NCBI GenBank assembly: GCA_963580285.1
Contig: OY757026.1
Span: forward strand, 50,319,143-50,383,142
Reading direction: 5' to 3'
Source: Lucinisca nassula
Taxonomy: Eukaryota; Mollusca; Bivalvia; Lucinida; Lucinidae
Length of the DNA: 64,000 bases
Under the pieces are notes generated by a model that worked only from the letters and a program-made list of their open reading frames with translations, was not told the DNA's origin and ran no database searches. Below are positions 4,763-63,058 of this stretch, piece after piece (positions within the stretch are counted from its first letter, which is position 1; each line of letters begins with the position of its first letter). The translations under genes and the position numbers were made by a program.

Positions 4763-5165
4763 AAGAATTCCGCTGAAGGCTATGTCCCCCCTGAGCCCTG
4801 AGGGGAGCTCAAAGGCACAGAACCATGAAATCTACACCATGGTCAAACAATGGATGCTTGCATAAAAGCTACCATTCGTAGATGTAATCGCTAGGGTTGA
4901 CCTATAGATCAAAAGTCTGTGAATCATGAAATGTAGGTCAAGGTCAAATATGGATAATTGCATTAAACTTGACATCCCTAGATACAAATTTGTACCAAGT
5001 AACATTAATAAAGCTGTAAAAGTTCTTGAGAAATAAACTTGACCATTTTGGTGAATGCTAGGGTGGTTGCAAATGTTGACCATTTGACAAACGGATGGAA
5101 AATGGATTCCTATATCACACCATGCTGAAAGCAGGTGCGACAAAAATGAAAATAATGGCTGCAAC
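4763..5165 (+). mobile_element. Interspersed element, family K (ACAAGAATTCCGCTGAAGGC)
   Basis: It starts ACAAGAATTCCGCTGAAGG and ends ACCATGCTGAAAGCAGGTGC. Its body has GTAGGTCAAGGTCAAATATGG and ATTAATAAAGCT..AGTTCTTGAGAAAT blocks. Other copies or fragments lie at 5798-6250, 6640-6780, 7090-7145, 40587-41050 and 44935-45120. It resembles the other HINE-like families here in general plan, but I see no large tandem core in this copy. Confidence 0.7.
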
Positions 5166-5216
5166 CATCTTGGTTGGCAGCTTAATTGTTAATTCAAGGG
5201 ACAGGGATCAACTTAC

Positions 5217-5324
5217 CTGGCTTGGAATGGCTTGTATATTGGCAACAATAATCACAACAAGGTCTCCTAACGATACAGTCAGTAGCCATACTGAATTAAC
5301 AACTGTCTTCAATGAATCTGGAGC
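5217..5324 (-). CDS. SLC15-like exon l: TM11 region
   Basis: Reading the minus strand, acceptor TTTATTGCAG precedes GCTCCAGATTC and the exon ends CCAAGCCAG before gtaagt. It encodes 36 residues in phase 0: APDSLKTVVNSVWLLTVSLG followed by DLVVIIVANIQAIPSQ. It matches the conserved block APS.MKSVLQ..WLLTVA.GN of PepT proteins, including the hydrophobic helix. It is the last exon that I can place; the 3' end of the gene should lie to the left. Confidence 0.88.
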
Positions 5325-5340
5325 CTGCAATAAATGTTTG

Positions 5341-5470
5341 TTTGTTTGATTTGAGGTTTAACGTCCTCGTCAACACTGTACAGGTCATTTTGGAGATGTT
5401 GCTTCCAATTTTGTGGAACTTTTACTCTGTATTGAGATGAAATGACATCTCAAGCTATGGTAATGATCCT
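5341..5470 (+). repeat. SINE-like family D, 5' fragment
   Basis: TTTGTTTGATTTGAGGTTTAACG..GGTCATTTTGGAGATGTTGCTTCC..GAGATGAAATGACATCTCAAGC matches the first ~120 bp of the full copy at 6784-7095. Confidence 0.75.
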
Positions 5471-5859
5471 TAGTATTGGAACAGGCAGGCCTAAGCAAAC
5501 AGTGCAAACCCAGATCAAGACTGCTCCTGAAGGAGCAGTCTGATCAGGGTCTACACTGTTTGCCATTCAGTCTGCACTTTTTGGACTCCTTGCTAGATCA
5601 TGAAACAAACTGTAAAATTTTAGGAGAATTACAACAAGTTCTCAAGGTGTCTGAATTTTTAGAAATTTTACAGTATGTGTTAACAAGTAACACAGACAGA
5701 CCTATGAGATGTAACAGAGATATTATTAATGGACAATTTGGAAAACTAATGTTGCAGGTACACTTGTTTGAATCGTCTGATCATACAAGTATATAAACAA
5801 GAATTTCGCTGAAGTCTATATTCCACCTCTGGGGTGAAAAACCATGAAATACAATAATA

Positions 5860-6018
5860 CCGGCCATATTGGTCACCTCTATCAAGCAAGCTAGCATGCA
5901 TTCAGTTCCCAACAAATGTGAATGCATTAAAACACACATGTTTTAAGCAAGCACATGTCTTAAACAAGCACATTTTGAATATCCATTCTGTGCTTGCTTA
6001 ACACAGGTTGGACTGTAT
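5860..6018 (+). repeat. MITE family I (AAGCAAGCACNTGT)
   Basis: This diverged copy has repeated TTAAGCAAGCACATGTC motifs and the terminal TTAACACAGGTTGGACTGTA. A better copy with both TIRs lies at 60837-61008. It is inserted in a family K element. Confidence 0.7.
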
Positions 6019-6275
6019 AGGTCAAGGTCAAACATGGATACTTCATAAAAGTTGAAATTGACATTCCTGAATGCAAGCTTGTAACAAGTATCATTAAAGA
6101 TGCTCTTATAGTTCTTAAGACATGAACTTAAACTTTAGGGTGAATGCTAGGATTGACGCAATAGTTCTTTAAGTCAGTGAACCATGTAATGGAGGTCAAG
6201 GCAAATATGGATGCTTGCTATAGTTGTCATACCTAGACGAAAGTTGGTACCAATTATCATTAATAATGCTCTTAT

Positions 6276-6614
6276 ACAGTAGAACACTGATGGCTCGAAC
6301 ACCGATGGCTCGTTTACCATGGATGTGTCTAACCCATTCTTGAGCCCCTAGCGAAATCCTCTACATAAGAAATAGTGGGGGATAATTAAGATGATGTTAG
6401 TCTTTTATCTTGCAAATGTATGCTGTGTGTACTCATTAGATGAGGCGATTCTAATCAGTACACACAGCATACATTTTCACTATAGAACACCAAAAAGATG
6501 TCTAAAAGTATCTCGTTATGCCTCCTGACAGTAACCTCAGTGGCTCGAACTACGCCTGTCTCGAACATATTGTTGTGGTCCCAAAGGTGTTCGAGCCACT
6601 GAAGTTTGACTGTA
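6276..6614 (+). mobile_element. Tc1/mariner-like MITE family F, copy 1
   Basis: It has TA at both ends, TIRs CAGTAGAAC..GATGGCTCGAACAC / ..TGTTCGAGCCACTGAAGTTTGACTG, and a central hairpin (GTGTGTACTCATTAGATGAGGCGATTCTAATCAGTACACAC). Other copies lie at 18826-19161, 19230-19545, 23009-23345, 32612-32977, 41151-41499 and 62711-63058. TA targets and CAGT ends suggest Tc1/mariner mobilisation (inference). It has no coding capacity. Confidence 0.85.
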
Positions 6615-6783
6615 TTTTTGAGAAATATACCTGAATATTAGGATGAATGCTGGGGTTGAGGCAATAGTTCTCTAAGTTATTGAACCATAAAATGTAGGTC
6701 AAGGTCAAATATGATGCCTGAATTCAAATTGCCATCCCTAGATACAAGTTTGTACCAAGTATCATTAATGGTGCCCTTTTAGT

Positions 6784-7095
6784 TCTTTGTTTGTTTGTTT
6801 GATTTGTGGTTTAACATCCCCATCAACACTACTTAGGTCATTTTGGAGACGTTGCTTCCAATTTTGTTGGACTTTTACCTGACACTGAGATGAAATGATA
6901 TCTCAAGCCCAGCTGCCCAATGAAACCAACAGGGTTTATATGCATGGATGGTCCGACTCACACCACTTTGCCTGGGCAGGCTTGGATCTCCTAAGTGGTT
7001 TACCAGTACTCATGTGCGGTTAATTTCATTCTGCGTGGAAGCATCATGCAGCCCAATCTATTTCTCCAAGCCCCGATGGGTGGGGGTCCTCTTTT
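6784..7095 (+). repeat. SINE-like family D, full copy
   Basis: A ~310-bp interspersed repeat from TTTGTTTGATTTGTGGTTTAAC to AAGCCCCGATGGGTGGGGG, with a conserved CACTGAGATGAAATGATATC block. Further copies: 23435-23755 (+), 62378-62645 (+), 20370-20537 (-), 11560-11665 (-) and fragments at 5341 and 63360. I see no clear box A/box B, so SINE is a size-based guess. Confidence 0.7.
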
Positions 7096-7189
7096 AGTTC
7101 TTGAGAAATGAACTTGACCATTTGGGTGAACCGTAGGGTGGTAGCAATAATGCATAAAGCGAAAATAAGCTTAACATTTCATGTGAATC

Positions 7190-7378
7190 ATCTGTCTAAC
7201 AGATGATTCGAAGTCTAACAGATGATTCAAAGTCTAACAGATGATTTGACATCTAACAGATGATTCAAAGTCTAACAGATGATTCAAAGTCTAACAGATG
7301 ATTCAAAGTCTAACAGATGATTCAACAGATGATTCAAAGTCTAACAGATGATTCAAAGCCTAACAGATGATTCAAATA
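7190..7378 (+). repeat. 19-bp minisatellite (GTCTAACAGATGATTCAAA)
   Basis: About ten direct copies of a 19-bp unit, with one or two shortened units (CAACAGATGATTC) near 7320. Confidence 0.92.
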
Positions 7379-7548
7379 TAATGTCAAGTCTTGTTTTTGC
7401 TGAAAAACAGGAAAAAAAATTTGGAAAATGCTGTCAGCTACATGTGCTTAGCCCTGAAGGGTAGCATTGCGCAAACACGCCTATACAAATACATTGCCAC
7501 CTTTATCGCCGAAAAAATGAAAATTTTATGATGAAAAATTGTGATATT

Positions 7549-7735
7549 TTTCTTATTTCTGCTCCAAATATAGATTGTGGGTACTCGTTAGAACCGCCTC
7601 ATCGAGGTGGTTCTAACGAGTACCCACAATCTATATTTTAGAGCAGAAATAAGAAAAATAAGGTTTACCCCCGGAAACCCCAGTTTTACTATATAAAAGT
7701 GGGGTTCAAGGGGGTCAAAATTATATAGGCATGTT
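7549..7735. mobile_element. MITE family G (TGTGGGTACTCGTTAGAACC hairpin)
   Basis: A long inverted repeat centred at about 7602: GGGTACTCGTTAGAACCGCC / GGTGGTTCTAACGAGTACCC inside TTATTTCTGCTC / GAGCAGAAATAAGAAAAAT arms, followed by the reverse of a CCCACTTTATACAGAGAAAACT end. Other copies: 7905-8060, 12640-12775, 18075-18240, 22370-22600, 38375-38480, 43870-44060 and 51415-51570. Confidence 0.85.
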
Positions 7736-8205
7736 TTCGTGATGGTTTTCAAAGCCCATCATTATAATAAACTGACACATCTATCTAAAACTCATGATGA
7801 TTTTCATAATGCAGTTGAATTTCATTCTCCTAAAGCCATCCCGAGTGACATTTTGCATTCTTTCATTTCTCCAAAATAGCTACTTTTCTGATGAAAACTT
7901 GCAACATTTTTCTCTAAACACATGTTGTGGGTGCTCAATGAGGCAGTTCTAATCAGTACCCAAAACCTATGTCTTGGAGCAGAAATAAGCAAAATAATGC
8001 ATATCCCTCTTAACCCAAGTTTTCTTTATATAAAGTGGGGTTTAGAGAAGTATTTATTTCATGGACCTGTTGACATGATGGCCTTTCTTTGTAGTCACAA
8101 TCCACAAGAAGTTTTCATGATTAAATAATGATAATCCATATGGAAAACATTCTGAAATTAACTTAAATGCCAGCCAAAAACTGAAAAGTAACTTCTCCTA
8201 ATTGG

Positions 8206-9757
8206 TCCGACTACTCACCTGAGTATAAACAAATGAAAATCCACTGATTGAGAAAGGTACATCTCCATAAGTGATTACAGGCAAATGACAACGCCTCCCA
8301 AATTATGATGTTCACCTGAGAGTGCAAATGATTATCTACTGAATGACAATTGCACCTCCCCAACAGAAGATTACCTGCCTGAGTATAAGCAAATAAAACT
8401 GTCCTGATTCAGAATAGCACCTCCCCAACAGGATCACTCACCTGAGTAATGCAAATGATAATCTACTGATTGAGAATAGCAACTTGCCAACAGATGGTTA
8501 CTCACCTGCGTATAAGCAAATAAAATGTCCTTATCCAGAATAGCACCTCCCAAACAGGATCACTCACCTGAGTATAAGTGAATGACTGACTATTTCTACT
8601 GACTGAGAATAGCACCTCCCCAACAGGTGATTACTGACCTGAGTAAATACTGATTCAAAATAACATCTCCCCAAAAGTGATAACTCACCCAACTTTAAGA
8701 ATCAATCCACTGATTGAGAACAGCAACTCCCGAACAGTGATTTCTCACTTGAGTATAAGAAAATGGGAATCTAGTGCTTGAGAAGAGCACCACCTCAAAA
8801 GTGATTACTCACCTGAGTGATTGTATAAGTAAATTGAGAATAGCACCTCCCCAACAGGTGGTTACTCACCCGAGTATAAACAAATGACAACCCACTGATT
8901 GAGAACACCCCCAACAGGTGATTACTCACCTGACTATAAGCAAATGACAACCTACTGATTGGAATAGCACCTCCCCAACTGAGTATAAGCAAATGACAAT
9001 TTATTGATTGAGAGTAGCACCTCCCTAACAGGTGATTATTCACTTGAGTATAAGCAAATGACAATCTACCGACTGAGAATAGCACCTCCCCAACCGGTGA
9101 TTACTCACCTGTGTATATACTGATGGAGAATAACATCTCACAAAAGGGTATGACTTACCTGACTATGAACAAATGACAATCCACTGATTGAGAACAGCCA
9201 CTCACCAACAGTGGTTACTCACCTGAGTATAAGCAAATGACAACCAACTGATTGAGAATATCACCTCCCCAAGAGGTGATAACTCACCTGAGGTCAGGCT
9301 GGGATACGTAAATGACAATCTACTGATTGAGAAAAGCACCTCCCCAACAGGTGATTGCTCACCTGAGTATAAGCAAATGACAATCTACCAACTGAGAATA
9401 AAACCTCCCCAACAGATTACTCACCTGTGTATATACTGATGAAGAATAACAGCTCAAAAAAGGTTATGACTCACCTGAGTGCAAGCAAATGACAATCCAC
9501 TGATTGAGAATAACATCTCCCCAAAAGTGATTACTTATGTCAGTATAAGCTAATGACTATCCACTGATTGAGAACAGTCAATCGCCAACAGTGATTACTC
9601 ACCAGAGTATAAGCAAATGACAATCCACTGATTGAGAATAACACCTCCCCAAAAGTGATTACTTATGTCAGTATAAGCTTACTGATTGAGAACAGCCACT
9701 CACCAAAAGTGATTACTCACCCGAGTATATGCAAATAACAATCCACTGATTGAGAAG
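8206..9757 (-). repeat. 65-bp minisatellite made of SLC15 exon-k tail plus splice donor, block 1
   Basis: About 24 copies of a 65-bp unit. On the minus strand each unit reads like the last ~46 bases of exon k (coding GEVLFSISGLSFAYTQ) followed by GTGAGTAATCACCTGTTGG. The authentic exon is at 12414-12545, and this block lies downstream of it in the same intron. The period is not a multiple of three, so the array has no common frame, and units are several to 20 % diverged. It must have arisen by tandem duplication across the exon-intron boundary. Confidence 0.92.
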
Positions 9758-10369
9758 GTCACTGGTCGTTTCGTCCGTGAGTCATTTCGCCCTTGAGTCG
9801 TTTCGCCCGTGGGTCATTTCGCCCTGAGTTGTTTCGCCCTGGGTCGTTTCTTCCGTGGGTGTTTTCGCCCTGATTCGGTGGGTCGTTTAGCCCTTATTTT
9901 TTGAAGCCCTATGGATTGAGGTTAGATATGTTTTGGTATATAAAGGGGTTGATGGGGATATGGGGAGTCCCGGAAAATATTGTAATATCCTCGTTTGGTA
10001 CTATACTTGACCTTCATCTACTTTTCATGGTTCACTGACTTTGAAAACTATTGTGTCAAACCTAATGTTTACCCTACTATTTATTTCTCAAGAACTGTAA
10101 AAGTATCATTAATGATACATGGTACAAACTTGCATCTTGGGATGCAGCGATAATTCAAGCATCCATAATTGACTTTGACCCACTTTTCACGGTTCACTGA
10201 CTTTGTAAAATATTGTGTCAAACCTAGCGACCATCCTACCATTCAAGTTAATTTCTCAAGAACTATAAGAGCTTCGTTAATGAACTTTGTAACAAGATTG
10301 CATCTAGTGATGACAATTATAATGCAATTATCCATATTTGACATTGATGTACTGGGACTTATGGCTGTG

Positions 10370-48353: not shown

Positions 48354-49502
48354 CTGGAAAAAATAAATTCATGAATTCGTTTATGAGACAGGGTGCAGAC
48401 AATCTATTTATCACCCAAACTGGACAAGTCAGGGAGCCTGAGGGGTTTAGAGGGGTGTTTGTTTCATGGACCTGTTAACATGATATTGTCAAGGACCTTT
48501 CTATCGAAAATTTGTAAGTAAACTAAAACCTTTTTGCTAAAATTATTGTTGGGGTCCAAAGCAGAAACTGTGGACAACCAGGTTATATTCAAACAAAAAT
48601 GAATAGATAATACAAAAATAGAGTTTATTTGGTGTTTTGATCGATTATGGTGATGTAATTCACAAGTGTTCTCCAAGGCTTCAGAGTAAAAAATGAGTGA
48701 GCGATAGCGAGCGAGTTTTTTGCACGAAAGCATTAGAACATGTGTGAATTATTTCTCGGTAATCAATAAAAATAACAAAATAAACTATTATTACATTTCC
48801 ATTCATGTTTTACCTTTGAATTTTCAAATTCAACCATTCTGATTTCCAACCAAAATAGTTCCAGTCAGGGCATGGATTTCATTTCAATACAAAAATCGTC
48901 CTGTGCTTGAAAAACAGATTCAACTATGTCATGAAAGTAGAACTGTATTATCAAGAAAATCATACTTCATCTTCGTGTTGCAGGTCCTTCCTCAAAAACG
49001 TCAAATGGACCCCGAAAATTGAAGTCTGATTTCTATGATTTTATCAGATTTTCAGCCAAAGGTCAACTATTGTTATTGTTGTTACCAACGACGTCAGCAT
49101 CGTGGCCTAGCACTTATGACATCAAAACGTTCGAAATGAAATAATTCACTCAGTGATAATTCACTGAGAAATCTGAGTAAATCACTACTGAAAATGTAAT
49201 AAACATGACCATTTATGGTAATTTTTCTGTATAATCTTTACATGTTTGGCACCCCTTTAAACTGTTGCCATAAAAATCCTAAAAAATTTGAACACCTTGA
49301 AGACTTGCTGTGTTTCTCCTAAAACTTTAACAAATTTGTTTCACATTCAAGCAAGAAGTCCACAAAAAGTGCAGATGGAATGGCAAATAGTGTAGACCCT
49401 GATCAGACTGCTCCTTCAGGAGCAGTCTGATCAGGTCTACACTGTTTGCTTTGGGCTGTCTGTCCCAATACTAAGGATCATTACAGTATATCAAAACCTA
49501 CT

Positions 49503-49522
49503 GTAGCGAGGGCAAGAGATTT
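49503..49522 (+). repeat. Left terminal inverted repeat (20 bp)
   Basis: GTAGCGAGGGCAAGAGATTT. Identical in inverted orientation to 61912-61931. Beyond position 20 the arms diverge (CCAATAATGG versus TTTAAATAAT). Confidence 0.95.
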
Positions 49523-49840
49523 CCAATAATGGCGGACGTATCTGGCGCCGTTGTTTAGTGACCTAGTTTAAATTTCTTTTCTCAGCAATGTGAACGATTC
49601 AATCAATTATTGCAATTGTATTCTTCCAGCTGAGGAATAATTTTAACTGGCTGTTGAAAAAAAAAAACGAAAGAGTATATTTTATTGATGATTATTGAAG
49701 CGTGAAAAGAGGTAGTCCGACGCGAATTTTGACAGTTCTTTGTTTTGACAGTCGCCATTTTGAGACGGGTCAGGTGATTTACTTGGATCATGTGATGTAT
49801 ACGTCATAGAAATGTGCGGTCTTTTTTGCTCATTTTCAAG
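49523..49840 (+). promoter_or_regulatory. Putative promoter/5' UTR of the transposon gene
   Basis: 318 bp from the TIR to the ATG. It contains CCAAT (49523), YY1-like sites (AATAATGGCGGAC at 49526 and the reverse-strand AAAATGGCGAC at about 49750), a CRE-like TACGTCAT at 49800 and a pyrimidine stretch CTTTTTTGCTCATTTTC just before the ATG. No convincing TATA box sits at a fixed spacing. A second YY1-like AATATGGCGGCG lies in intron 1 at 50107. Transcription start is inferred. Confidence 0.5.
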
Positions 49841-49863
49841 ATGGAAGGCGCGGGAATCAAAGA
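49841..49863 (+). CDS. Transposon gene exon 1 (start codon)
   Basis: ATGGAAGGCGCGGGAATCAA-AGA followed by gtgagt, a perfect donor. It encodes MEGAGIK plus two bases that complete Glu with the first base of exon 2. The context TTCAAGATGG is a good Kozak match. It was chosen as the start because it is the only upstream ATG exon whose phase fits exon 2. Confidence 0.78.
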
Positions 49864-50856
49864 GTGAGTTTTCTGTAATTTTATGATGAAAAATCACTAT
49901 TTTACAGCCCTTTGAACTTATGCAAAGTCCAGGAGAATATTTTTGAAGGAAGGAGGCTCCCTCACTATATGTTCACTATGTTTTTTGTAAACAACAGTCA
50001 TTTTTCAGCCTAAATTCGATGGTTATTTCTAAATTTGATGTAGCGCAAGGGCGCGCAAAATAAATTTCCAGCCGCACGGTTTCAGATTTTTTGCCGATTT
50101 TCTTCAATATGGCGGCGTCAGTGGATCATATGTCAGAGGAAATTCATACCATAGCGCCCGTTTCTGACTTTGCCTTTTATTTTTTAGCTTTCTTCACATG
50201 TAAATATTTGTGTGGTTTTACTGACATCTTAATCATGTTCATGTTTAAGAAAGATAAATAAATAGAAAATAATAACAGAATCTACAATATTTTGAGAGAG
50301 GTGTTATAGTAAAAATGAACCAGACAAATTGTCCGGCTACACTTGTGCAAAAGTTCTATCATTCAGATTTCATGGTACAATATATCTAAGCTGTAAATTT
50401 TGAATGTTCATACATCACACACATTTTGGCTTTGCTTTAGCTCAGTTCAAGGTGACAATTGTCATCACAATCTAGCAAAGGTGGTGAGGAGATGAGTCCT
50501 GACAGTGGTTGTGAATAATATCCATGTTTGAAAAGATGTTTAAATGGCATTCGTGTCACGCTTTCATTCTATTTTAATACACTTAAAACCAAGTAAACCT
50601 ATTCCAACTGATGCAAACAACCTAAAGGAAAGGATACGTTAACACCTGATACACTGACAATGGGATTGAACACAGGATCAGGACCTGTAGTGGTAAAATT
50701 CAGTTGGATAACCACTCTGCTACCCTTATAATGATGTTCCAATTATTTTGTATATGATGTGAAACCTGTTCAGATCTTTCTTACTGCAACCTATTAAATA
50801 AAATGCAAGACAGTTATGCATTTTATAGTCAGTTGTATTTAAAATTGTCTGCTCAG

Positions 50857-50982
50857 GTCACAGGAAGAGCCAACGTATGGTGAAAATTCCAAGTGTCGTT
50901 GTGGAGCAAGTGCGTTTCATCCCTGGGCTCCTGGGTCTCAGTGTTGTGGCAGTCCATCAGAATCAGAAGCGAATTATCCAAG
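50857..50982 (+). CDS. Transposon gene exon 2 (Cys-rich motif)
   Basis: Acceptor AAATTGTCTGCTCAG, then 126 bases, donor gtgcag. Encodes SQEEPTYGENSKCRCGASAF, HPWAPGSQCCGSPSESEANY, P. CxC, a His and a CC pair in 17 residues could bind zinc. Its phases (1 in, 2 out) fit exons 1 and 3 exactly. Confidence 0.82.
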
Positions 50983-51404
50983 GTGCAGTTAAAAGTTTTC
51001 ATATATAAAGTCGTAGGCCTGTCATTATGCCCATGAAAATATGGCATTTCTTAATGATTCTAAAAGTAACATTTTTTGTATGGAAAAATGTGATATTTTA
51101 TTTTCTCCTTTACGCTCAAGACAAAGATGGTTGGGGCTCGTTAGAGCTGCCTTTATAAAGTGACTCTAGTGAGCAGCAAAAATTGATGGTTGAACCATCA
51201 AGTAAGAAAATTTAAGTTATAACCCTTTATTCCAAACTTTTCTCTTAATAAAGTTTGGTTTATCTGTATCTGTCTGTATCTGTATAAGTACGTTGCAGGG
51301 CCAATTCTGGCATAGGCGCAACAGAGTTGGATTAGGTCGCCTAGTCGCGACTGGAGAGAGCCTTCTTAAAGCCCTCTACCTTTTCTGCGAGGTTTAATCA
51401 TGAA

Positions 51405-51600
51405 AACACCTATATAATATTGACCCCCTTAAACCCCACTTTCATATAGTAAAACAGGGGTACACATTTTTTTTATTATTTCTGCTCAAAAATATAGATT
51501 GTGGGTACTGGTTAGAATTGCTTCATTGTGGCAGTTCTAAAGAGTACCCACAATCTGTGTTTTAAGCTAAAATATGAAACATATCAGAATCTTTTATCTG
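51405..51600. mobile_element. MITE family G copy inside transposon intron 2
   Basis: CCCCACTTTCATATAGTAAAAC..GTGGGTACTGGTTAGAATTG / CAGTTCTAAAGAGTACCCAC hairpin. A shorter diverged hairpin of the same type is at 51117-51212. Confidence 0.8.
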
Positions 51601-51869
51601 AAAATTTTCATTCTTTTTGGAGATAAAATGTCCATTATATGTGAATAATTATGTTATCATAATGTAAAGAGGTCCCCATGGCATTGACATGATTGCTGTA
51701 AGCTTTTAAAACGAATTCTGATTTATTTCATTTTGGGGGGGGGGGGGGATAGTGAAACCTATTTTTCTTACTGATTTAAAACCCTGTCAAATTCAAATTA
51801 TTATAACCAGAAACTTAGGAATGTGTGTGTGTGCTGAATTGCTAATAGCAGTGCTTTAGCAATACTAAT

Positions 51870-52092
51870 AGCAATGTTTAACCTTTAACCTGCTGAATAT
51901 TCAATTAAGCCACACCCATTTCTGACTTTGAACCAATCAGATTACTTGATGCAGTTTATTTCTACATATTTATAAACTGAATGTCAAACAGTGTAGATCC
52001 TGATCAGATGGCTTCTTCAGAAGCCATCTGATCTGGATCTACACTGTTTGAAAAGATAGGGCTTGTCGCCAACAGCAGGCTAAAGGTTAAGC
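51870..52092. mobile_element. TTAA-bounded MITE with hairpin, inside transposon intron 2
   Basis: TTAACCTTTAACCTGCTGAA .. CAGCAGGCTAAAGGTTAA ends, and a GTAGATCCTGATCAGATGGC / GCCATCTGATCTGGATCTAC hairpin. Copies at 59375-59590 (inverted) and 60127-60345, all in this transposon's introns, and a partial at 17955-18050. Confidence 0.8.
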
Positions 52093-52528
52093 ACTACTAA
52101 CACCAGTGCTAAATTATCTCAATAGTATCTAATTTCCTAAATATCATTGTTAATCTTGAGCCTTCTTGAGATATTTGCTTAAGTGTGTCAGAATCCTCAG
52201 TTGGCATATAATCATATTAGGGTTTTGGATATTTAATTTCAAAATGTTAATATTTCATGAAATTAATAATTATGTTTACTTTTTTTTTTCCAACAAGCTA
52301 CCTAACCAAAAAGGGTCTTCAACATTGTTTGATTTATGATTATTTACATGCTCGTATGGGGCCAGATGCATGGTAGTGTGACTGAAACTTTCACCATGAT
52401 TGTTATAGGCTACAAGTCTAAGAAACACAAAATGCTTGGGTGAGACCTAGCTGATGCACAGGCTCCTTGAGCCTTTTCTCAAGGACTGGATTAAATCTGT
52501 TTTATCAGTTCTCATGTATAAATTTCAG

Positions 52529-52634
52529 TCAGACATCAGAGAAAGAACTACCTGAGCCTCTGGAGGTGACGGAGCAGCAGGAAGCTGTTTTCAATTTAGA
52601 TTCAGAGTGTGACTTGTTTTCATCATTATCAGAA
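52529..52634 (+). CDS. Transposon gene exon 3
   Basis: Acceptor CATGTATAAATTTCAG, 106 bases, donor gtaatt. Encodes (S)QTSEKELPEPLEVTEQQEAV, FNLDSECDLFSSLSE; acidic, low-complexity linker. It begins in phase 2 and ends in phase 0, consistent with both neighbours. Confidence 0.8.
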
Positions 52635-52664
52635 GTAATTAATATTTCTAAAGCTTTTACTTTT

Positions 52665-52895
52665 TATGCCCCGCCACCAAAAAGTGGCGGGGTATTATGT
52701 TATACCCTCCAAAATTTTGAGTGTCTGTCCGTCAGCGCATTGATCATTCATGTCCGCTCAATAACTCTGAAATCAACACATATAGAGGATCTTACACGAG
52801 TGGTCATTTCATATGATATTTGTGAAACGAGCCTTCGGCGAGTTTCATAAATATCAAAAGAAATGACCACAAGTGTAAGATTCTCTTTATCATAT
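52665..52895. repeat. HINE 3' end (minus) and an adjoining MITE hairpin
   Basis: ATGCCCCGCCACCAAAAAGTG-GCGGGGTATTAT is a terminal hairpin of a truncated HINE-like element in minus orientation. Next to it, GAGGATCTTACACGAGTGGT..CATATGATATTTGTGAAAC / GTTTCATAAATATC..ACCACAAGTGTAAGATTCTC is an inverted-repeat MITE with a second copy at 59586-59700. Confidence 0.7.
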
Positions 52896-53574
52896 GACCA
52901 CTTCAAATTGGATTTTATCGCCTTCTAATTTGACAATTTTTCTACGAAAAATGCATTGTTGACATGGACGTCGTCATGACGATACTTAATCCCGGCAAAG
53001 TGTTATTACACGTGTGGTCATACGATATTTATTACACGACGTTATCCACTGCTTATCAACGACGTCATGTGATAAATATTTTTATGAAACTTTACCAAAA
53101 TACAAAGACTTGATTTACCCGTCTGGAAAATGGATTGTCCTGTCTGAAAGGACACTGTCAGCTTCTCTGCTTCATTAATATTTAATTGGATTTGATTGGT
53201 CTAAATCCAACTGACCACAGGTTATTTGATCATGCTTTTTTAACCTGATGTTTATCACTGGGGCATTTTAATGCTGAACCTTCAAGTGAAAGGACTTACT
53301 TTGAACTCAGACGTGTGCTTTTGCTGCATGCAAATGTTTCATAAAGTGTTTGGCACCAGTAGATGGGAGTGTATTTTGTGATAATTCAGGGATATTTTTT
53401 CTCCATAAAAAGGTATGTTGTGGGTACTCATTTGAACTGCCTCATCCCACAAAACATGTTGTGGGTACTCGTTGGACTTGCCTAGATGAGGCGGTTCTAG
53501 CGAGTACCTACAATTTGATTTTATGGAGAATTGGAGAAACTTAAGCAGTCTGATCAGGGTCTGCACTGATTCGG

Positions 53575-54140
53575 CAAAAGCTATTTTAAATGTGGGTACT
53601 CATTCAAATAACCTTGTCGAGGCTATTTGAATGAATACCCACAATGTTTATTTTGTCAAGCAGAGCTAGAAGCCCCTTCCCATTTTAAGATCAGAAGGAG
53701 CAGTCTGATCAAGGTCTGCACTGTTTGCAATTAAGTAAAAGCTATTTTAAATGAGGGTACTCATTCGAATAACCTTGGTGAGGCTATTTGAATGAATACC
53801 CACAATGAAGCCCCTTCCCATTTTAAGATCAGAAGGAGCAGTCTGATCAGGGTCTGCACTGTTTGCCATTAAGTAAAAGCTATTTTAAATGTGGGTACTC
53901 ATTCGAATAACCTTGGCGAGGCTATTGAATGAATACCCACAATGTTAATTTTGTCATGCAGAGCTAGAAGCCCCTCCCCATTTAAAGATCAGAAGGAGCA
54001 GTCTGATCAGGGTCTGCACTGTTTGCCATTAAGTAGAAGCTATTTTAAATGTGGGTACTCATTCAAATAACCTCGGCGAGGCTATTTTAAGGAATACCCA
54101 CAATGTTAATTTTGTCATGCAGAGCTAGAAGCCCCTTCCC
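53575..54140 (+). repeat. Tandem repeat of ~130-165 bp, 3.5 copies, two hairpins per unit
   Basis: Each unit has AGCTATTTTAAATGTGGGTA, the hairpin TGGGTACTCATTCAAATAAC..GAGGCTATTTGAATGAATACCCA and AGAAGGAGCAGTCTGATCAG. It ends ~160 bp before exon 4. Confidence 0.85.
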
Positions 54141-54302
54141 ATTTTCAGTGTATAAACTAAAAATAAACCCTCACTTCCAATGCATTTATATATGCATTGG
54201 AAATGAGAGTCAGTGCTGGTATTCTCTAAACTCTGCAGTAATACCTTATTGTTTGTGGGTGAACCTAAACCACAACTCTGACAGTTTCCATCTTATTATC
54301 AG

Positions 54303-54410
54303 GATCACACTTGTGCAGACTGTCAGGTGAAAGATGATATTATAAAGCAGAAAAACGAGGAGATAGCTACCCTGAAAAGAGAGTTGGAGGACTTGTACAA
54401 TTTCTTGAAG
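54303..54410 (+). CDS. Transposon gene exon 4
   Basis: Acceptor TCCATCTTATTATCAG, 108 bases, donor gtagag. 36 codons in phase 0: DHTCADCQVKDDIIKQKNEE, IATLKRELEDLYNFLK. CxxC followed by a heptad-like coiled-coil start (I..K..E...L.RE.EDL..FL). Confidence 0.85.
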
Positions 54411-54871
54411 GTAGAGTTATGCCTGCTCAATGTCTAACTTTAGCATGAATAACCACCATGTGCTAATATATTATCCACATATCACATAACATAGCATTAA
54501 GTGTCATCTTCACTAATACACTTTCAGGTTATTTATTCTTTCTTCCTACTCCCTAATCATCATTCTAACACACCTCGCCAAAATCACTGTGCAAAACAGC
54601 ACTGTTAACTTTCGGCCAAATTTTGACATATTATCTGTGACATTGATATTTTCTTGACATCAGACGATGCTACATCCAGTAATTTTAATGAAATAAAATG
54701 ACTCTGTAGAAGAGTAAAGATATGAAATATAGTCAATATGCTCTTGTGGGATACTTATTCGCATGCCAGTGTGATTGTCTGAAGAATTTTTCGAAAATCG
54801 TTTTATTGTTCTCCAATTTGTGCAATAGAGTCAAAGCATATCAGATGTAGTAGTGAATTGTTGAATCAAAA

Positions 54872-55060
54872 TAGAAGTGAAGGCAATGATCAGGAATCGA
54901 TACAATTAACCCACAGCTCCTATCAGTGACACCAATGGGAAAGAAACACAAACATGAAATAACTAGACTCTAAAGTGGAAAGCCAAAAGGACAGTTACTT
55001 TCCCACAAAATGGCCAATTAGCTATCCAAAATGAAATAATGTAAGCAATACACACACAAT
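54872..55060 (-). mobile_element. Family L fragment in transposon intron 4
   Basis: GAAGTGAAGGCAATGATCAGGAATCGATAC...CCAATTAGCTATCCAAAATG, reverse complement of the end shared by the other L copies. Confidence 0.7.
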
Positions 55061-55328
55061 CTATGCTGTGCTTTGTCTCAGTTCTAATGTGGTTTTAGTA
55101 AAAAAGAAGAGACAAAAAAAAAAATTAACTAAGCAATTGAGGTAGCAGAATAACAGGTGGTTTTACTAGTAGTTTTAGTAACAGTAGTTGTGCTGTTTGT
55201 GCTAATAGTGACTATCTAAATCCTGCTTATTTGTCTTGTTTTCCTTCATATAAATTAATCATATTTTGCTTGCTAGAGTAGATTTTCTGTTTAAATCCTG
55301 TGCTTGCTTGTCTTGATTTTCTTACCAG

Positions 55329-55380
55329 GGACAGAGACTAACAGGAGACAATTGCCCATGTGCCCTTAATTTCAGGCTGG
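55329..55380 (+). CDS. Possible transposon gene exon 5 (52 bases)
   Basis: Acceptor TGATTTTCTTACCAG and a weak donor (CTGG-gtttgg). Encodes GQRLTGDNCPCALNFRL plus one base. Its length (1 mod 3) is what is needed to put exon 6 in its long open frame. The case is uncertain: the sequence before this acceptor (TTGCTTGCTAGAGTAGATTTT) is duplicated before the exon 6 acceptor (TTTGCATGCTAGAGTAGATTTT, 56463), so this may be a remnant of a local duplication. Confidence 0.4.
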
Positions 55381-55407
55381 GTTTGGGAGAAAATGCCTAT
55401 TACCTTT

Positions 55408-56066
55408 ATTATACCCGCTTTTTCAAAGAAAAATCGGGTATATTGTTTTCGTACCACAGTTCGATCCGGCGTCAGTCCGTCTGTCCGTCCGTCTGTCTGT
55501 CCGTCCGTCACGTTTCTTGTGATTGGATCTCCTCTGCAACCACTGAAGTTACACTTTCGAAACTTAGCATGTGGATAGTACATGGAATGTAGATGGCAGT
55601 GGGCAACTTTTTTGTGACCTTGACCTCAACATGACCCCAAGGTCAAAGGTCAAAAATTATGATTTGCCATATCTCCTAAACTATTGGAGTTACACTTCTG
55701 AAACTTTGCTTATTGGATGGCCCTTGGAATATAGAATATGTTGGGCTACTTTTGGTGTGACCTCGACCCCAAGGTCAAAGGTCAAAAAGTATGACTTTGC
55801 CATATCTTCTAAACTATTGGGAGTTACACTTCTGAAACTTGGTTATTGGATGGCTGTTGGAATATAGAATAAATTGGGATGCTTTAGGTGGACTTCAACA
55901 TAACCCCAAGGTCAAAGGTCAAAAAGTATGACTGCCATATCTTACACTTCTGAAACTTTGCTTATCAGTTAGAATGTTCTTTGCAACTTTTTTTAACTTA
56001 CATGTAGTTTTGGCTAGCTAATACATAGTCATTAGTGTTATTAATAGAAAAAGCGGGTATTTGCGA
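55408..56066 (-). mobile_element. HINE-like element with ACCCGCTTTTTC end, minus orientation
   Basis: The left boundary TTATTATACCCGCTTTTTCA and right boundary GAAAAAGCGGGTATTTGCGA are inverted. Next to the left boundary lies a GTCCGTCTGTCCGTCC microsatellite. Core repeats of ~130 bp follow with GTTACACTTCTGAAACTTTG and AAGGTCAAAGGTCAAAAAGT. Read on the minus strand it has the same plan as the other HINE-like elements. Confidence 0.75.
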
Positions 56067-56496
56067 TGGTTTACCATCGACTGCAGATCTAGTGTAAAAT
56101 TTACATTCATGGCAGTTTGGAACCCAGAGGTTTCAGATCTAGAGCATCAAGGCAAAGTTGGTGGGTTTTGTTTGCATATTGGCACTATATAACTCCTAAA
56201 TGAGTACCCTTGCAAACAGTGCAGGCCCTGATCAAACGCTGCAGAAGGCGACGTCTGATCAGAGCTGCCACTACTTGCTAAATCCTCAACCATTTTTTTT
56301 ATTGAATTTCTGAAACTAGCTGAACCTGGCACCCCTAAATTTCGAATTGGACTCCTGCTTTACATTGCGAGGATGACTTCATTCGGTCTGAAATATGTAT
56401 ATGAAACCCCTGGGAATTCAAACAAAAATGTATAGTCTGTGTCCCAGCTTACTAACCATAGTTTGCATGCTAGAGTAGATTTTTTTCTTTATACAG

Positions 56497-59366
56497 GAAC
56501 AGAAATCAGCCTCACCAGTTTTCAAGAAAAAAAGATGTTAAAAAATTCAGAAGTGCTTAGATATATGCAGCAGGAGGGAAAAACTGCTACTGTAAAACAC
56601 TTAATAACTTTATCAAAAGAAAAGCAGTTAGTTCCCCCCTCTGATGGGGCAATTTATAATAAATTGAATAAACTAAGCAGGACTTGCCAAACCTTTAAGA
56701 AAAATCAAGGTAGAATATGTGGGTCCAAACAAAAAAATTTTGAGGACGCAGCTTTTGACATGCCAGTTGCTAGTTCAAGTATAAAGAAAAGTGCTACCGC
56801 TCCTTCTTGTGATAATAGCATATTTATGAATAAAGCATTAAGCCTTACAACACAGAAGCTGGCTGAAGATAATTTCATTTTGAAGCAAAAAACAGTTGAA
56901 ATTGAACAAGTAAATAATGATTTAATAAAACAAGTAAAGGCCGTGAAAACTGAAATTTCTAAAACTAAAATTCCTGCTCTGAAGTTGAAAATTAAGCAGC
57001 TGGAATCAGATAAAAAGAATGTCAGGAACGAAAATAGAACTCTGAAATTATTAAATACATCATTAAAGACAAGAGTTTATTCAAAAACTAAATTGATAAA
57101 GAGTACAACATCAAGACTGAAGTATTACCAAGGTCTTGTTCTAGAATTAAGGAACAAACTAAAAGAAAAAGATGGCATTATTGAAACATTACGGGTTGAA
57201 GAGGAGCAAAAAATGGAACAAATCAAATCTTTAAATTCTGAAAAAAATGACACAATAGCAGAAAATGACTGGCTGAGAGAACTGATCAGCAATGAAGTGG
57301 TAACATTTGATGGCTACAAATATACAGCTGAAATGCAAAATTTGATATATGACTTGTTATCATGTCATGTCAGTACAAGAAAAATTCCTTTTGTTATACA
57401 GGCTGTGTCTAAGCTAGTAGGCAAAACTGTTAGCCATATACCTAGTAGAAGTTCCATCAACAACATGAGCACACAGATGCTTTCATTATCTCAAAATCAG
57501 CTGGGAGAAGAATTTGCACAAAAGTCAAACACAACCCTACTGAGTGATGAAACTACAAAATATGATCAGCGAGTTGAAGGGATTCATGCCTCAGATGAGG
57601 AAGGAAGAGAATGGGTTCTTGGATTAAGAGAAATAGAGACAAAAAGCTCAGAAAATGTTATGAAAACTTTTAAACAGATACTTAGCGATATTGATAGTAG
57701 ATCAGAAGTTGCAAATAGTGAGAAATCCAAGAACATTCTTGGCAATATAGTTGCCAAAATGTCTGATCGGGCAGCCACTGAATTGAAACTTGGCAGACTT
57801 ATAGAAGATGTTAGAAAAGAAGTACTACCTGAAGTGATGGCTGGTTATGAAGAATTAAATGAAGAAGAACAATCAGATGTTGGACAGCTATTGATATTTT
57901 CATGTGGGTTGCACAGTTTAGTGCATTTTGCTGAGTGTTGCAATATCAGTCTTATAGAAGCTGAGAAAGGCATGTTTCCAGAAAAAGTACCAAGTTTAGA
58001 CCCAGCGATGAACAAGGCTTGTGAGTCGGCTACATGTCGCCTTGTACGAACTTGCTCTAAAGCATTTGCTCGTGGTGGTGATGCTAAAAATGGTGTGCAT
58101 CTTGAATTTAGTGCTTATGTGCAACCATTCCTGAGGGAGAATAACCTCCATACTTTGCCTCTTGCTCCCTACAGAGGTAATCGTTTCAACATACTTTTTG
58201 CAAATGCCAGTCATGTATTCTTTCTTAGAAGCCAATTTCTTACATTTCTCAATGGACGTGATAATAATAGACTTTTAAAGTGTGTGTTACATGATTTGAA
58301 GTGTCCTGAATTTGTTTCGGGTTGTAAAGCGTTAGGATTGATTTCAAAATATGTGACAACACCATTGTGGTCCCTTATTGAAGATAAATCAATACATATT
58401 ATGGATATGTCAAAGTATTATACTTTGTTGGTAGAATCCCTGGAATATGCTTTGATACACATAAATGAGTTCATAGAGGGTAAAGTTCTGGTATTTGGAC
58501 ACAATACACCTGTCAATCGGGACAGCTGTCTAGATGAACTGCTTATGCCATTTGAACACGATGATATTGTTCAGTCATTATTATTAGTAATCATTCCATC
58601 TGTGATCAAAATTTGTAAAAAACTTTTTGCTGATCACCTATCTGATGGAAAGTTTGGGAATGTTGAAGTTGATTCATACCTGTACAACAGAACAAAGAGT
58701 GTTCCAAAGCACAACAAGTTTGCAGAGAGTATTTTTGCCTACATGGATTGCCTCTTGAAAGCACGACCTAATGTGAGTCTGCTGACATGTGAAGCTTTGA
58801 TCATGTTTACCAAAAACAAAACAGCAGACTGGCTAGCAGAGAAAGGAGACAAAGAAACTGCAGTTCTCCTTGGGAAGGCAAGAAAAAATCAGAAATATAT
58901 TTCCCAGGAATTCAAAGGAAGACAGAGAGAAATTAAGGAAGCCAGGCGCCTTGAGACAATGAGGAAACAAGAAGAGGCAGAACGCAAAAGACATGATAAG
59001 ATGAGGAAGCTGGAAAAGTATACCAATGCAATAATTGTACATGGTTTGTGGCAGTCTTTTGAACAAGTGGATGAACTGCTGTTACTTTACAATTCAAAAA
59101 CTCAGAAACTTGAAGCTTTGAAAGCACAGTTATATTTTAGAGAAAATGTTTTAGGTCAAAAACCAGCTGACAAAAAAGTGTTTCTCAAATCTGCTAGTGT
59201 TGATCAAATGACAATAAATGTGAAAAAATTGATTGAACATGCTGGCTCATTACCTTACAACGATGACAGACATATTCTTGTTGGAAAGAAAATTAGACAC
59301 AGACAGGAGTTAATGGAAAATGGTGTGAAATGTCTGAAGTGGTTTGAAGGAAAAGTTTGTTCACAG
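56497..59366 (+). CDS. Transposon gene exon 6: probable RNase H-like transposase core
   Basis: A 2.87-kb uninterrupted frame between acceptor TTTTCTTTATACAG and donor gtatta. Order of parts: a small basic helical domain (MLKNSEVLRYMQQEGKTATV, 56535 on); a ~150-residue coiled coil (56820-57290); and a region with strands and helices like the RNase H fold. LLSDETTKYD (first Asp codon 57546), LGLREIETKS, AKMSDRAATE (second Asp 57765, 73 residues on), FSCGLHSLVHF (CxxH, 57903), PYRGNRFNILF (58170) and TTPLWSLIED (Glu 58380, 205 residues after the second Asp). Then another basic coiled coil (58880-59010). D...D, CxxH and an R-rich motif before a late E is the layout of hAT/KDZ-type transposases. 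Function is inference; the catalytic Glu is the least sure. Confidence 0.85.
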
Positions 59367-59374
59367 GTATTACA

Positions 59375-59590
59375 CTTAACCTTTACCCTGCTGTAGGCGA
59401 CAAGCCCTATCTTTGCAAACAGTGTAGATCCAGATCAGATGGCTTCTGAAGAAGCCATCTGATCAGGATCTACACAGTTTGACATTCAGTTTATGAATAT
59501 GTAGAAATAAGCTGCATCAAGTAATCTGATTGGTTCAAAGTCAGAAATGAGTGTGGCTTAATTGAATATTCAGCAGGTTAAAGGTTAAGA
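59375..59590. mobile_element. TTAA-bounded MITE directly after the exon 6 donor
   Basis: TTAACCTTTACCCTGCTG .. CAGCAGGTTAAAGGTTAA ends, GTAGATCCAGATCAGATGGC hairpin. It starts eight bases inside intron 6, so the reading frame that continues past the donor (VLHLTFTLL then stop) is mostly MITE sequence. Confidence 0.8.
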
Positions 59591-59839
59591 GAATCTTACA
59601 CGAGTGGCCAGTTCATATGAATTTTATGAAACAAGCCTTTGGCAAGTTTCTTGATATTCATATGCAATGACCAAGAGTGTTAAGATTTTGTTCATTTTAT
59701 GACGCTTTAACTAGTGTTTTATCAGCTTAAAATGCCATTTTAACATCGTTGTCGCGGATGGAGTCATGATATTAAGTGCAGTATTTAAGAGTTATATGAG
59801 GGGACGTTATATCAATTTTTATGTTTGTTTGTTTTGGTG

Positions 59840-60000
59840 TTTTACGGCCCTTTCAACCCATTAGGATTATATCGAGCATGGTCAGTTAACCTAACCACAC
59901 CTTTCCTGGGCAAGCTTAGACCTAAGCGGTTAACCAGTACTGAGTGCACATACTTTCGCCAGTAACTGACAACTGACCTTCTTGAATCAGCAGAAGGATC
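59840..60000 (-). repeat. SINE-like family C fragment in transposon intron 6
   Basis: The reverse complement has CTGATTCAAGAAGGTCAGTT, GTTAACCGCTTAGG and GTGTGGTTAGGTTAACTGAC. Confidence 0.65.
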
Positions 60001-60126
60001 AATTTTTATGTAATGACAATTTTATGTAATGACATTATCCACTGAATAACTGTGATGTCATATGGTAAAAATATATATTGAGGTTTTAACTGAATATTTA
60101 CATTATCACTGTAAGAGTTTTAATGA

Positions 60127-60345
60127 AACTTTAACCCTTCTCTTGCTGAATATTCAGTTTAGCCACACCCATTTCTGATTTTGAACCAATCAGATTACTT
60201 GATGTAATTTATCCCTACAAATTCATAAACTGAATGCCAAACAGTGTAGATCCTGATCAGATGGCTTCTTCAGAAGCCATCTGATCTGGATCTACACTGT
60301 TTCCAAAGATAGGGGTTGTCGTGAACAGCAAGATAAGGGTTAATA
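60127..60345. mobile_element. TTAA-type MITE, third copy in the transposon
   Basis: ACCCTTCTCTTGCTGAATATTCAG..AACAGCAAGATAAGGGTTAA ends with the GTAGATCCTGATCAGATGGC hairpin; ends more degraded than 51870-52092. Confidence 0.75.
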
Positions 60346-60836
60346 TTGAAGTTTCATTTTTCGAATAGTAACAGTCTCGCAAAATATCAAAGGGGAGATA
60401 AGGCACATGAGATGATGAGTAGGTGCCTAAGATTAAAGTGATTTTTATTTTAAATCATCGATAAACGCAATTCTAACACAAGGTTATCATTTATTCCATT
60501 GAACACAATGTAAACGTCATCGTGATCAAACTATGATAATTCACGTTACTAACATAGAGCATGCAAAAGAGCACATTTGATGATGTAGGATGCAAACATT
60601 AATTTATGTGGATGTTCAATGCAAAGTAGCTATTTTGAAAAGGTCTTAAAAATGTCAAATTTACTTTCTGTATCATGTTAGAATTGAAATAACTTATCCT
60701 TACTTGTGTATTACAGCTGATTAATACATGTTGTTTCGGGCAGATTCAAACATTAATTTACAATAGCAAAAAAAAAAAAAACACCAAAAAACATTAATTC
60801 ACTCCGGCTTCGCTATCGTGAATTTATACAGTGAAA

Positions 60837-61008
60837 CCTGTTATAGTGGCCACCTCTATTAAGCAAGCAACCTGTATTAAGCAAGCATGAATTCAGTTCC
60901 CAAATAAAACAAATGCATTGAATTTCACCGGTATTAAGCAAGCACCTGTCTTAAGCAAGCACGTTTTGACTATCTCTTAGGTGCTTGCTTAATACAGGTT
61001 GGACTGTA
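60837..61008. mobile_element. MITE family I, complete copy in the transposon
   Basis: TA-bounded; CAGTGAAACCTGTTATAGTG / AATACAGGTTGGACTG ends and repeated ATTAAGCAAGCACCTGT motifs. Confidence 0.8.
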
Positions 61009-61183
61009 CTCCACAATCTGCCCTCAACAACATGTTAATCAACTATAATACAAAGCAAAGTAAAATTATATCTTAAATAAAACAGCCCTAAATTGTATGA
61101 TTAAACTAACCATAATCACTTAAGTAGTATGTTTAAAATTAAGATATTCAACTTTTAATGAAGACTTTCCTTTTCTACTTCAG

Positions 61184-61303
61184 GTGACAGGATATCCAGA
61201 TTGGTTTAACGTGAAATACCAGGAGGATGAGGCAATATACACATACAGACTAGCAGAAGATTTAGAAAGGGGAGATGTGCAAATATTAGTGGGGGCAAAT
61301 TAA
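61184..61303 (+). CDS. Transposon gene exon 7 (C-terminus and stop)
   Basis: Acceptor TTTCTACTTCAG, then 40 codons in phase 0 ending TAA: VTGYPDWFNVKYQEDEAIYT, YRLAEDLERGDVQILVGAN. GYPDWFNVKY-DE-YTYRL-DL-GD is a compact beta-rich segment that looks like a small Tudor/chromo-like fold, but this is a guess. Splice phase and codon content are good. Confidence 0.88.
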   Translation: MTGYPDWFNVKYQEDEAIYTYRLAEDLERGDVQILVGAN

Positions 61304-61384
61304 AGGTGCTGGTAATTTTTGCAGCCAGATTGGTAAGTCATTGTTTATTTTTTGCCGACAGAAATCACTACTGTGGTCCCTTTA

Positions 61385-61911
61385 TAGGGGTGTAACTCTG
61401 TTACATGTAGTAACAGAGATATCTAAAGGAGCTTCCTTTCATTAGTTTGTTTGTCTGTTGTTTTTTCCATTAAAATAACTACCATTGGATATTATTACTT
61501 TTCGTTGTGTATGAAAAAATACTATGTATATTATGAATACATAATCAGAAGGCACATTCTTGTCAGACAAAAAAAGCGTACATTTGTAATCTCTTCAAAG
61601 GGGAGTAACCCTGTAAGTAATTAAGCTATCTGGAAAAGATAACTGTATATCATTTTCTATTCAAAAGGCCTTAAAGTTTACATTTAGTATTGCATGCTTT
61701 CTAGTGTGTATTGAGGCATTTCAAATACCTTATGGATACATTATCATTAGACGCAATTTTTGTCAGACAAAAAGTGCGCTGGTTGGTTTATTCAAAGGGG
61801 CATAACTCTGCCTGTAATAAAGATATCTTAAAAAACTTTATATCATTGTTCTTCTCTTTAAAAGACCTTTAATTTGATATATAGTTTGCCATACTTTCTA
61901 TATTATTTAAA
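61385..61911 (+). repeat. Imperfect ~200-bp repeats at the right end of the transposon
   Basis: AGGGGTGTAACTCTG (61386), AAGGGGAGTAACCCTG (61599) and AAGGGGCATAACTCTG (61797) mark three units, each followed by a GATATCT.AAAAA..TATATCATT segment and, in two, TTGTCAGACAAAAAGTGCG-like sequence. Confidence 0.75.
61816..61821 (+). terminator. Polyadenylation signal AATAAA
   Basis: The AATAAA closest to the right TIR (110 bp inside it), followed by a T-rich TTGTTCTTCTCTTT stretch. It is the likely 3' end of the transposon transcript. Confidence 0.45.
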
Positions 61912-61931
61912 AAATCTCTTGCCCTCGCTAC
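61912..61931 (-). repeat. Right terminal inverted repeat (20 bp)
   Basis: AAATCTCTTGCCCTCGCTAC, exact complement of 49503-49522, directly followed by the CTACT target duplication (61932-61936). Confidence 0.95.
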
Positions 61932-61948
61932 CTACTGTGCTATAATAT

Positions 61949-62077
61949 AAGGGTGTGAGGGGTGGATGGAAAAATCCGTCCCAAGGGTCACTGTCAGGCA
62001 TCACGAGGCTTGCCGAGTGATGCCGGGCAGTGATCCCAAGGGACAGATTTTTCTATCCCCCACTCACACCCTTATAG
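61949..62077. mobile_element. Foldback MITE (TAAGGGTGTGAGGGG)
   Basis: AAGGGTGTGAGGGGTGGATG..CCCAAGGGTCACTG inverted as CAGTGATCCCAAGGG..CCCCCACTCACACCCTT. It lies 12 bp right of the large transposon's duplication. Confidence 0.82.
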
Positions 62078-62377
62078 GATTCTTTTTCTTGCACACCCTC
62101 CATTTCTTAGTGCAGATTTTTAATGCTGCAGTCACTTCGAGTACCGACATCCACCATATTGTGATGACAGTACAGGAATATTTAGTGACGTCATGTAATG
62201 TGCTGTGACGTCAACCTTAACGACGGCGCATATGTTGTCGTATTCAACCAGTGCAGTTTTCAAACACGCGAGAATATTCGATTTTGGGTAAGAACACCAG
62301 GGTTAGAACAGAACTTCTATCCCAAGCTAAAACTATGGATTTCCTTAGCTGGTGTGAAAGAAAGACGTTTAGGTGTG

Positions 62378-62645
62378 TCAACAATATTTAGGTTATTTTG
62401 GAGACATTGCTTCCTATTTGTGGGACTTTTACCCAAAACTGAGATGAAATGACTTCTCAAGCCCTGCTGCCCAAAGAAATAAGAAGATTTATATGCACTG
62501 GATGGTTCCGACTCACACCGCTTTGCGTGCGCAGGCTAAGTCCTTCTAAGAAGGTTCACCAGTTCTCATGTGTGGTCAGTTTCAGCTCTGCGTGGAAGCA
62601 CCATGCAGCCCAAGCTGTTTCTCTAAGCCCCAATGGGTGGGGGCC
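62378..62645 (+). repeat. SINE-like family D copy
   Basis: TTTAGGTTATTTTGGAGACA..GAGATGAAATGACTTCTCAAGC..AAGCCCCAATGGGTGGGGG. Confidence 0.7.
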
Positions 62646-62710
62646 CTTTAGATGTGTCATTTTTAGTAATAACTCAAACAAAGATCTGGGTCTACCAGTA
62701 AACTTTTAAA

Positions 62711-63058
62711 ATTAAACTTCAATGGCTCAAACACCTTGACACCATGAAATGATTTTCAAATAAGAGAAGTTCAAGTCACTGAAAGTTAATCAGGAGGCAT
62801 AATAGCGGTATTTGTTTTATTTTCTGTAAAATAAAGGTATGTTGTGTGTACTCTTTAGAATCGCGATACTCATTAGAATCCGCATTCTAATGAGTAAATA
62901 CGGCATACAGTTCTAAGATAAAATAAGGAAGAGCATCCAAATATACTGATATCTGCATATATGGAAAATTTTTCCTAGGAATGAGTTTAAAACAGCCATG
63001 GTAAACGAGCCATCAGTGTTTGAGCCCTCGAAATTTGAGCCATCCAAGTCGAACTGTA
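62711..63058 (+). mobile_element. MITE family F, copy 7 (diverged)
   Basis: AAACTTCAATGGCTCAAACA / CCATCCAAGTCGAACTG ends and a degraded GTGTGTACTCTTTAGAATCG hairpin. Confidence 0.75.

Follow-up and report, generated by a model that had tools for sequence, protein, structure and literature searches.

A stretch of about 12.4 kb in the genome of the lucinid bivalve Lucinisca nassula, at positions 49504-61930 of a 64,000-nt window (assembly GCA_963580285.1, contig OY757026.1, here C20:50319143-50383142), is very likely a structurally complete, apparently autonomous cut-and-paste transposon with a hAT-like core and a C-terminal Spin/Ssty repeat, belonging to an animal lineage that is undescribed as far as the literature searched goes. 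It is bounded by terminal inverted repeats (TIRs) and flanked by a target-site duplication (TSD), is present in more than one copy, has recently mobile relatives and contains an open reading frame (ORF) for a DDE-type transposase. An earlier note on this DNA had proposed a complete transposon at 49498-61936; its completeness is borne out by a second copy with its own TSD and by a transposase ORF that is open from start to stop, while the boundaries have been corrected to 49504-61930.

Element ends, further copies and TSD length

The inverted arms GTAGCGAGGGCAAGAGATTT lie at 49503-49522 on the plus strand and at 61912-61931 on the minus strand without a mismatch, and this pair is the only match to the 20-mer in the window at up to three mismatches (0 in 100 shuffles). 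The perfect 20-bp TIRs, each abutted by CTACT, are thus confirmed. The accompanying argument that a 20-bp inverted match by chance is extremely unlikely fails in this window, where exact inverted pairs of 16 nt or more with a separation above 200 bp number 161. Of these, 68 measure 20 nt or more, and many stem from dispersed repeats. The pair is distinguished by the duplication immediately outside its arms and by its recurrence elsewhere, and the decisive evidence is the TSD together with the second copy. Abutting duplications of at least 8 bp accompany four of the 161 pairs, namely two palindromic artefacts, the element at 49504-61930 and a pair at 5021-10096. Taken alone, the window copy fits a TSD of 5 (CTACT), 7 (CCTACTG) or 9 bp (ACCTACTGT) equally perfectly, because its terminal bases are mirrored in the flanks, and the TIR shortens accordingly. 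Since the flanks of copy 2 and a related family fit 7 bp, the element very probably spans 49504-61930 (12,427 bp), with the 19-bp TIR TAGCGAGGGCAAGAGATTT at 49504-49522 (plus strand) and, in exact match, at 61912-61930 (minus strand), and the 7-bp TSD CCTACTG at 49497-49503 and 61931-61937.

Within the species' own genome (2,926,205,003 bases in 696 contigs), the exact 20-bp TIR occurs four times: twice in the window, once on C18 and once at C20:78999741. When as many as three mismatches are allowed, the number of matches is 39, compared with 28 for a reversed control pattern, so that the weaker matches are mostly due to chance. Copy 2 lies on the minus strand at C20:78943258-78999759; its ends, at C20:78943257 with two mismatches to the 20-mer and at C20:78999760, are separated by 56.5 kb. 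Over 1502 aligned columns, 1464 are identical to the window copy at the left end and 1481 at the right end; the left TIR is identical over its 19 bp and the right TIR carries one mismatch. The large exon differs at 31 positions and by a 4-bp insertion. With GCCCAAAAC directly before TAGCG and CCAAAACAC directly after CGCTA, the flanks of copy 2 give the 7-bp TSD CCAAAAC; here 9 bp is excluded, and 5 bp fits only with a mismatched outermost TIR base. Judging from the span, about 44 kb of extra DNA separates the left end of copy 2 from its transposase exon. The left end of copy 3, on C18, has 1349 identities over 1.37 kb and the identical 19-bp TIR; the TIR patterns yielded no right end for this copy. 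On C15 (59385240), an older fragment retains 81% DNA identity over 534 nt of the large exon. In collections of viral contigs and of genome contigs, from both of which this genome was possibly left out, no relative was confirmed. The earlier note had named the lack of any other TIR-bounded copy as a ground for abandoning the proposal, and the search for such copies found the second one. An alternative reading, as a family of host genes that carry a Spindlin domain and lie between repeats by chance, would accord with the names of several homologues ('SPIN3-like' or uncharacterised mollusc proteins) and with the abundance of inverted pairs that dispersed repeats create in the window. It is nevertheless highly improbable, as it is contradicted by copy 2 with its matching termini and own TSD, by four related copies of about 99% identity at unrelated sites, three of which were read with different TSDs, and by the at least 50 matches of a protein search of the same genome, many with stop codons.

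These four related copies, on C1, C2, C4 and C15, represent one element of about 6.5 kb; identity is 98.9-99.4% across the main blocks and 97.4% over 0.5 kb adjoining an insertion in the C4 copy. When TSDs of 5-9 bp were sought in loci L061 and L064, the scan gave TAGCAACCCCAG ends with the 7-bp TSDs CTAAAAT and CTAGCAT, and otherwise two weak 5-bp pairs in L061, while CTTGAGA flanks the C4 copy on both sides. The TSD is therefore 7 bp in all three copies read at both flanks, a count that does not include the C2 copy (L063). Only weak 5- and 6-bp pairs were seen for L063 and none for L062, one end of each copy lying outside the stretch scanned; loci L031-L060, scanned to about 1.5 kb beyond each match, gave no convincing pair of 5-9 bp (weak hits numbering 15, 4, 2, 3 and 0, some palindromic). 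At up to one mismatch, 10 right and 20 left ends of the related family occur genome-wide, against 0 for the control pattern. Fourteen of these left ends share one substitution (TAGCAACCCCAGCAGACTCC ends), which points to a second subfamily. The related transposase (1,069 amino acids, aa) is 26% identical to that of the window over 694 aa, with both Asp residues, CxxH, RFN and Glu in register, and through this relationship the 7-bp rule is extended to the window element. A 7-bp TSD is established for the related family, is consistent with both window-family copies and would be the rule for the lineage. The 5-bp TSD of the earlier note is very probably wrong. A true length of 5 bp with a GTAGCG TIR would agree with the G that precedes TAGCG at four of the five ends read in the window family, where CTACT and CAAAA both fit; this is improbable, however, as the right end of copy 2 has C at that position, yet CCAAAAC is perfect at 7 bp, and the two scanned related copies with TAGCAACCCCAG ends fit 7 bp, as does the third.

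Coding content and the Spin/Ssty repeat

Instead of the one spliced gene of about 1,134 codons described in the earlier note, the element contains two overlapping ORFs on the plus strand. ORF1 (135 codons, Cys-rich) would be assembled from exon 1 with its ATG (49841-49863; ATG and donor also present in copies 2 and 3), a Cys-rich exon 2 (50857-50982), exon 3 (52529-52634) and a coiled-coil-like exon 4 (54303-54410), all predicted from splice signals. These exons enter exon 5 in another frame and end there (56497-56541) at the TAA at 56539-56541, the letters being the same in copy 2. ORF2, the transposase, comprises 983 codons (56535-59366 and 61184-61303) with no internal stop. Its first coding exon (56535-59366, 944 codons) covers N-terminal helices, a long coiled coil and an RNase H core with a helical insertion, and its last exon (61184-61303, 39 codons and the stop) completes a Spin/Ssty (Tudor-like) repeat with the end of the previous one. 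The large exon is open over 56499-59366, and the protein P0001, whose numbering is used below, starts at 56499 and thus has 12 codons ahead of the ATG. The overlap of the ORF1 stop with the ORF2 start, ATGTTAA (within 56528-56545), has identical letters in copy 2 and suggests reinitiation. As copy 2 agrees and homologues start, by eye, near the ORF2 methionine, the arrangement is interpreted as a pair of overlapping ORFs rather than a frameshift in the window copy. For ORF1 no homologue was found at E<=10, no more than six candidates having shared words with it. In six of 121 proteins, the window protein being among the 121, the transposase follows a leader that terminates in a 2A-like NPGP motif; these six are P0008, P0099, P0108, P0109, P0110 and P0115, several with a hydrophobic stretch by eye. 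An AATAAA stands at 61816, 3' of the ORF2 stop, and the interval from the left end to exon 1 contains no TATAWA. Palindromic GTGTAGATCCTGATCAGATGGCTTCTTCAG repeats occur in the introns at 51991-52050, 59416-59475 and about 60240-60300, and some of the element's 12.4 kb may be due to miniature elements nested within it.

The tail of ORF2, which the earlier note did not mention, matches PF02513 with an E value of 2.6e-6 and 27.6 bits (gathering cut-off 25), and corresponds to the second Tudor repeat of Spindlin. The four positions of the Spindlin1 aromatic cage (F141/W151/Y170/Y177) are all aromatic (F/W/Y/H) in 28 of 41 repeats, and are Q, F, Y and Y in the window copy. Where Spindlin1-4 have three repeats, the window protein has a single one, which is joined to a transposase. 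No transposase bearing a Spin/Ssty repeat is described among the top-ranked papers of the literature searched, including PMC3706591, PMC10294476, PMC7864079, PMC4161474 and PMC4455052. One homologue, P0113, is filed under a Sedimenticola metagenome-assembled genome and probably represents DNA of the animal host that was binned with its symbiont.

Superfamily placement

Conservation and predicted fold both identify a DDE-type transposase inside the element, with the conserved residues D350, D423, C469xxH472, R562-F-N and E743 and a D-E spacing of 320. The predicted model combines an RNase H-like fold with a long helix (coiled coil), in agreement with the earlier note, and TIRs with a TSD at more than one unrelated site, in the window family as in the related one, are those of cut-and-paste transposition. 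In the hAT transposase Hermes, the catalytic residues are D180/D248/E572. In the predicted models, the RNase H fold of the window protein is likewise interrupted by a large helical domain, as in Hermes, and the DDE and CxxH arrangement is that of hAT. The assignment to no known superfamily made in the earlier note thus stands in part: no Pfam transposase family matches P0001 or six full-length homologues at E<=1 and a profile of Tol2-type proteins is not matched above shuffles, whereas the predicted fold is clearly hAT-like. The lineage is accordingly hAT-like in its modelled fold and is not shown to be hAT by sequence.

Several observations weigh against the overall interpretation. For the family of the window element itself, the TIR patterns gave no more than two copies complete from end to end, of which copy 2 has the frame-breaking insertion and the additional 44 kb, and the G before TAGCG leaves the shorter TSD fitting as well. 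The empty allele that the earlier note proposed to look for was not found in this genome, since none of the 40 scored matches, from 788 candidates, to the joined flanks of copy 1 (113 nt) spans the junction; two correspond to the flanks of the element itself and the other 38 match within the right flank. The related family is also mobile, with no Spin match at E<=1, so that mobility does not require the Spin domain, and methyl-lysine binding by the window copy is doubtful because the equivalent of F141 is Gln. As for the fold, Foldseek superpositions on Hermes are loose (root-mean-square deviation 10-19 A, TMt 0.36-0.51), the tight match coming from alignment with VIA-align. The profile alignment with 68 Tol2-type hAT proteins scored 24.9, compared with a maximum of 28.6 in 20 column shuffles and 26.4 for the reversed profile, and the TSD is 7 bp instead of the 8 bp usual for hAT. 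Regarding the flank itself, the sequence from about 61946 rightwards is a dispersed repeat that appears palindromic by eye, and the 38 matches represent further copies of it.

Against this background, the element may simply be a divergent hAT, that is, a deep clade within the superfamily that lacks BED and has gained Spin, and the chance of this falls just short of even. The Hermes-like fold across the whole core in the predicted models, the CxxH motif with its D-E spacing, the agreement of TAGCG with the YARNG rule for hAT TIRs and the register of both Asp residues in the weak profile alignment argue for it, as do Repbase hAT families annotated with a '7-bp TSD' (PMC4455052). On the other hand, the profile alignment does not rise above shuffles, the TIR of the related family begins TAGCA, and neither hATC nor BED was found in P0001 or the six homologues (E<=1) or among the best 25 of 119 families for 50 members (E<=10). 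The window transposase, of about 980 aa, also differs from Hermes and Tol2 in its long coiled coil and Spin/Ssty tail, and it has no significant profile match to Tol2-type proteins. A viral fold library gave no match at E<=0.001. The CxxH class is shared with the P superfamily (P element, THAP9, Galileo) according to PMC3706591, and papers on Galileo turn up in connection with a '7-bp TSD'. A Dada-type element is hardly credible. PMC3706591 describes Dada with a TSD of 6-7 bp, a DDE core with D/CxxH and a large intron-containing transposase, all of which resemble the window element; the same paper describes Dada families as having zinc fingers and no TIRs, as inserting into small RNA genes (snRNA and tRNA genes) and, in Dada-U6_DR, as having a D-E gap of 176 (D635-E811), whereas the window element has TIRs and a spacing of 320, and no Rfam model reaches its gathering score within 48500-63000.

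As far as the searches go, this is a widespread lineage of animal transposons undescribed in the literature searched, Repbase and Dfam being outside that search. More tentatively, it could form a separate animal-wide superfamily with TAGCR ends and a 7-bp TSD that split early from hAT and repeatedly gained C-terminal Tudor-like readers steering insertion to chromatin with histone H3 trimethylated at lysine 4 (H3K4me3). Beside the Spin/Ssty repeat, such readers would include the Agenet-like C-terminal match of the related family, which is below threshold.

Proposed mechanism and minor features

Under the interpretation as an autonomous transposon with a hAT-like core, ORF1 (exons 1-4) would be a separate small ORF, and translation of ORF2 would depend on reinitiation or on a different transcript. 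The resulting 983-aa transposase, whose RNase H catalytic core (D350/D423/E743) has a large helical insertion like that of hAT enzymes, would bind to ends of the TAGC type. Hermes excises through a hairpin mechanism, and by analogy excision may proceed via hairpins on the flanking DNA, followed by joining to a target cut with a 7-bp stagger, in keeping with the 7-bp TSDs seen. At the C-terminus, the Spin/Ssty repeat, which is related to the second Tudor of Spindlin1, probably anchors the integration complex to methylated histone tails, and target choice would be biased as a result. An analogy is provided by the RAG recombinase, a transposase-derived machine in which the PHD finger of RAG2 reads H3K4me3; there, the reader has an unrelated fold and resides in a separate subunit. 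A set of animal proteins annotated as 'uncharacterised' or 'SPIN3-like' would then be probable transposases of a lineage not recognised by Pfam, and the element offers a testable case of a eukaryotic cut-and-paste transposase with a histone-reader-like module. Should that module read H3K4me3, the way in which a DNA transposon selects its insertion sites could be studied as a defined problem of biochemistry, and the relative with recent copies would be a candidate for a gene-delivery tool whose bias is known.

Among the remaining features, three imperfect repeat units of about 200 bp adjoin the right end (61374-61900). A TIR-like motif at 50038 scored 24 compared with up to 32 in shuffles and is not above chance. 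Elsewhere in the window, 5021-10096, inside which no stop-to-stop ORF of at least 150 aa occurs, is a candidate element with inverted AGTTCTTGAGAAATAAA ends and an abutting duplication GTAAA that can be extended to TGTAAAA or CTGTAAAAG.

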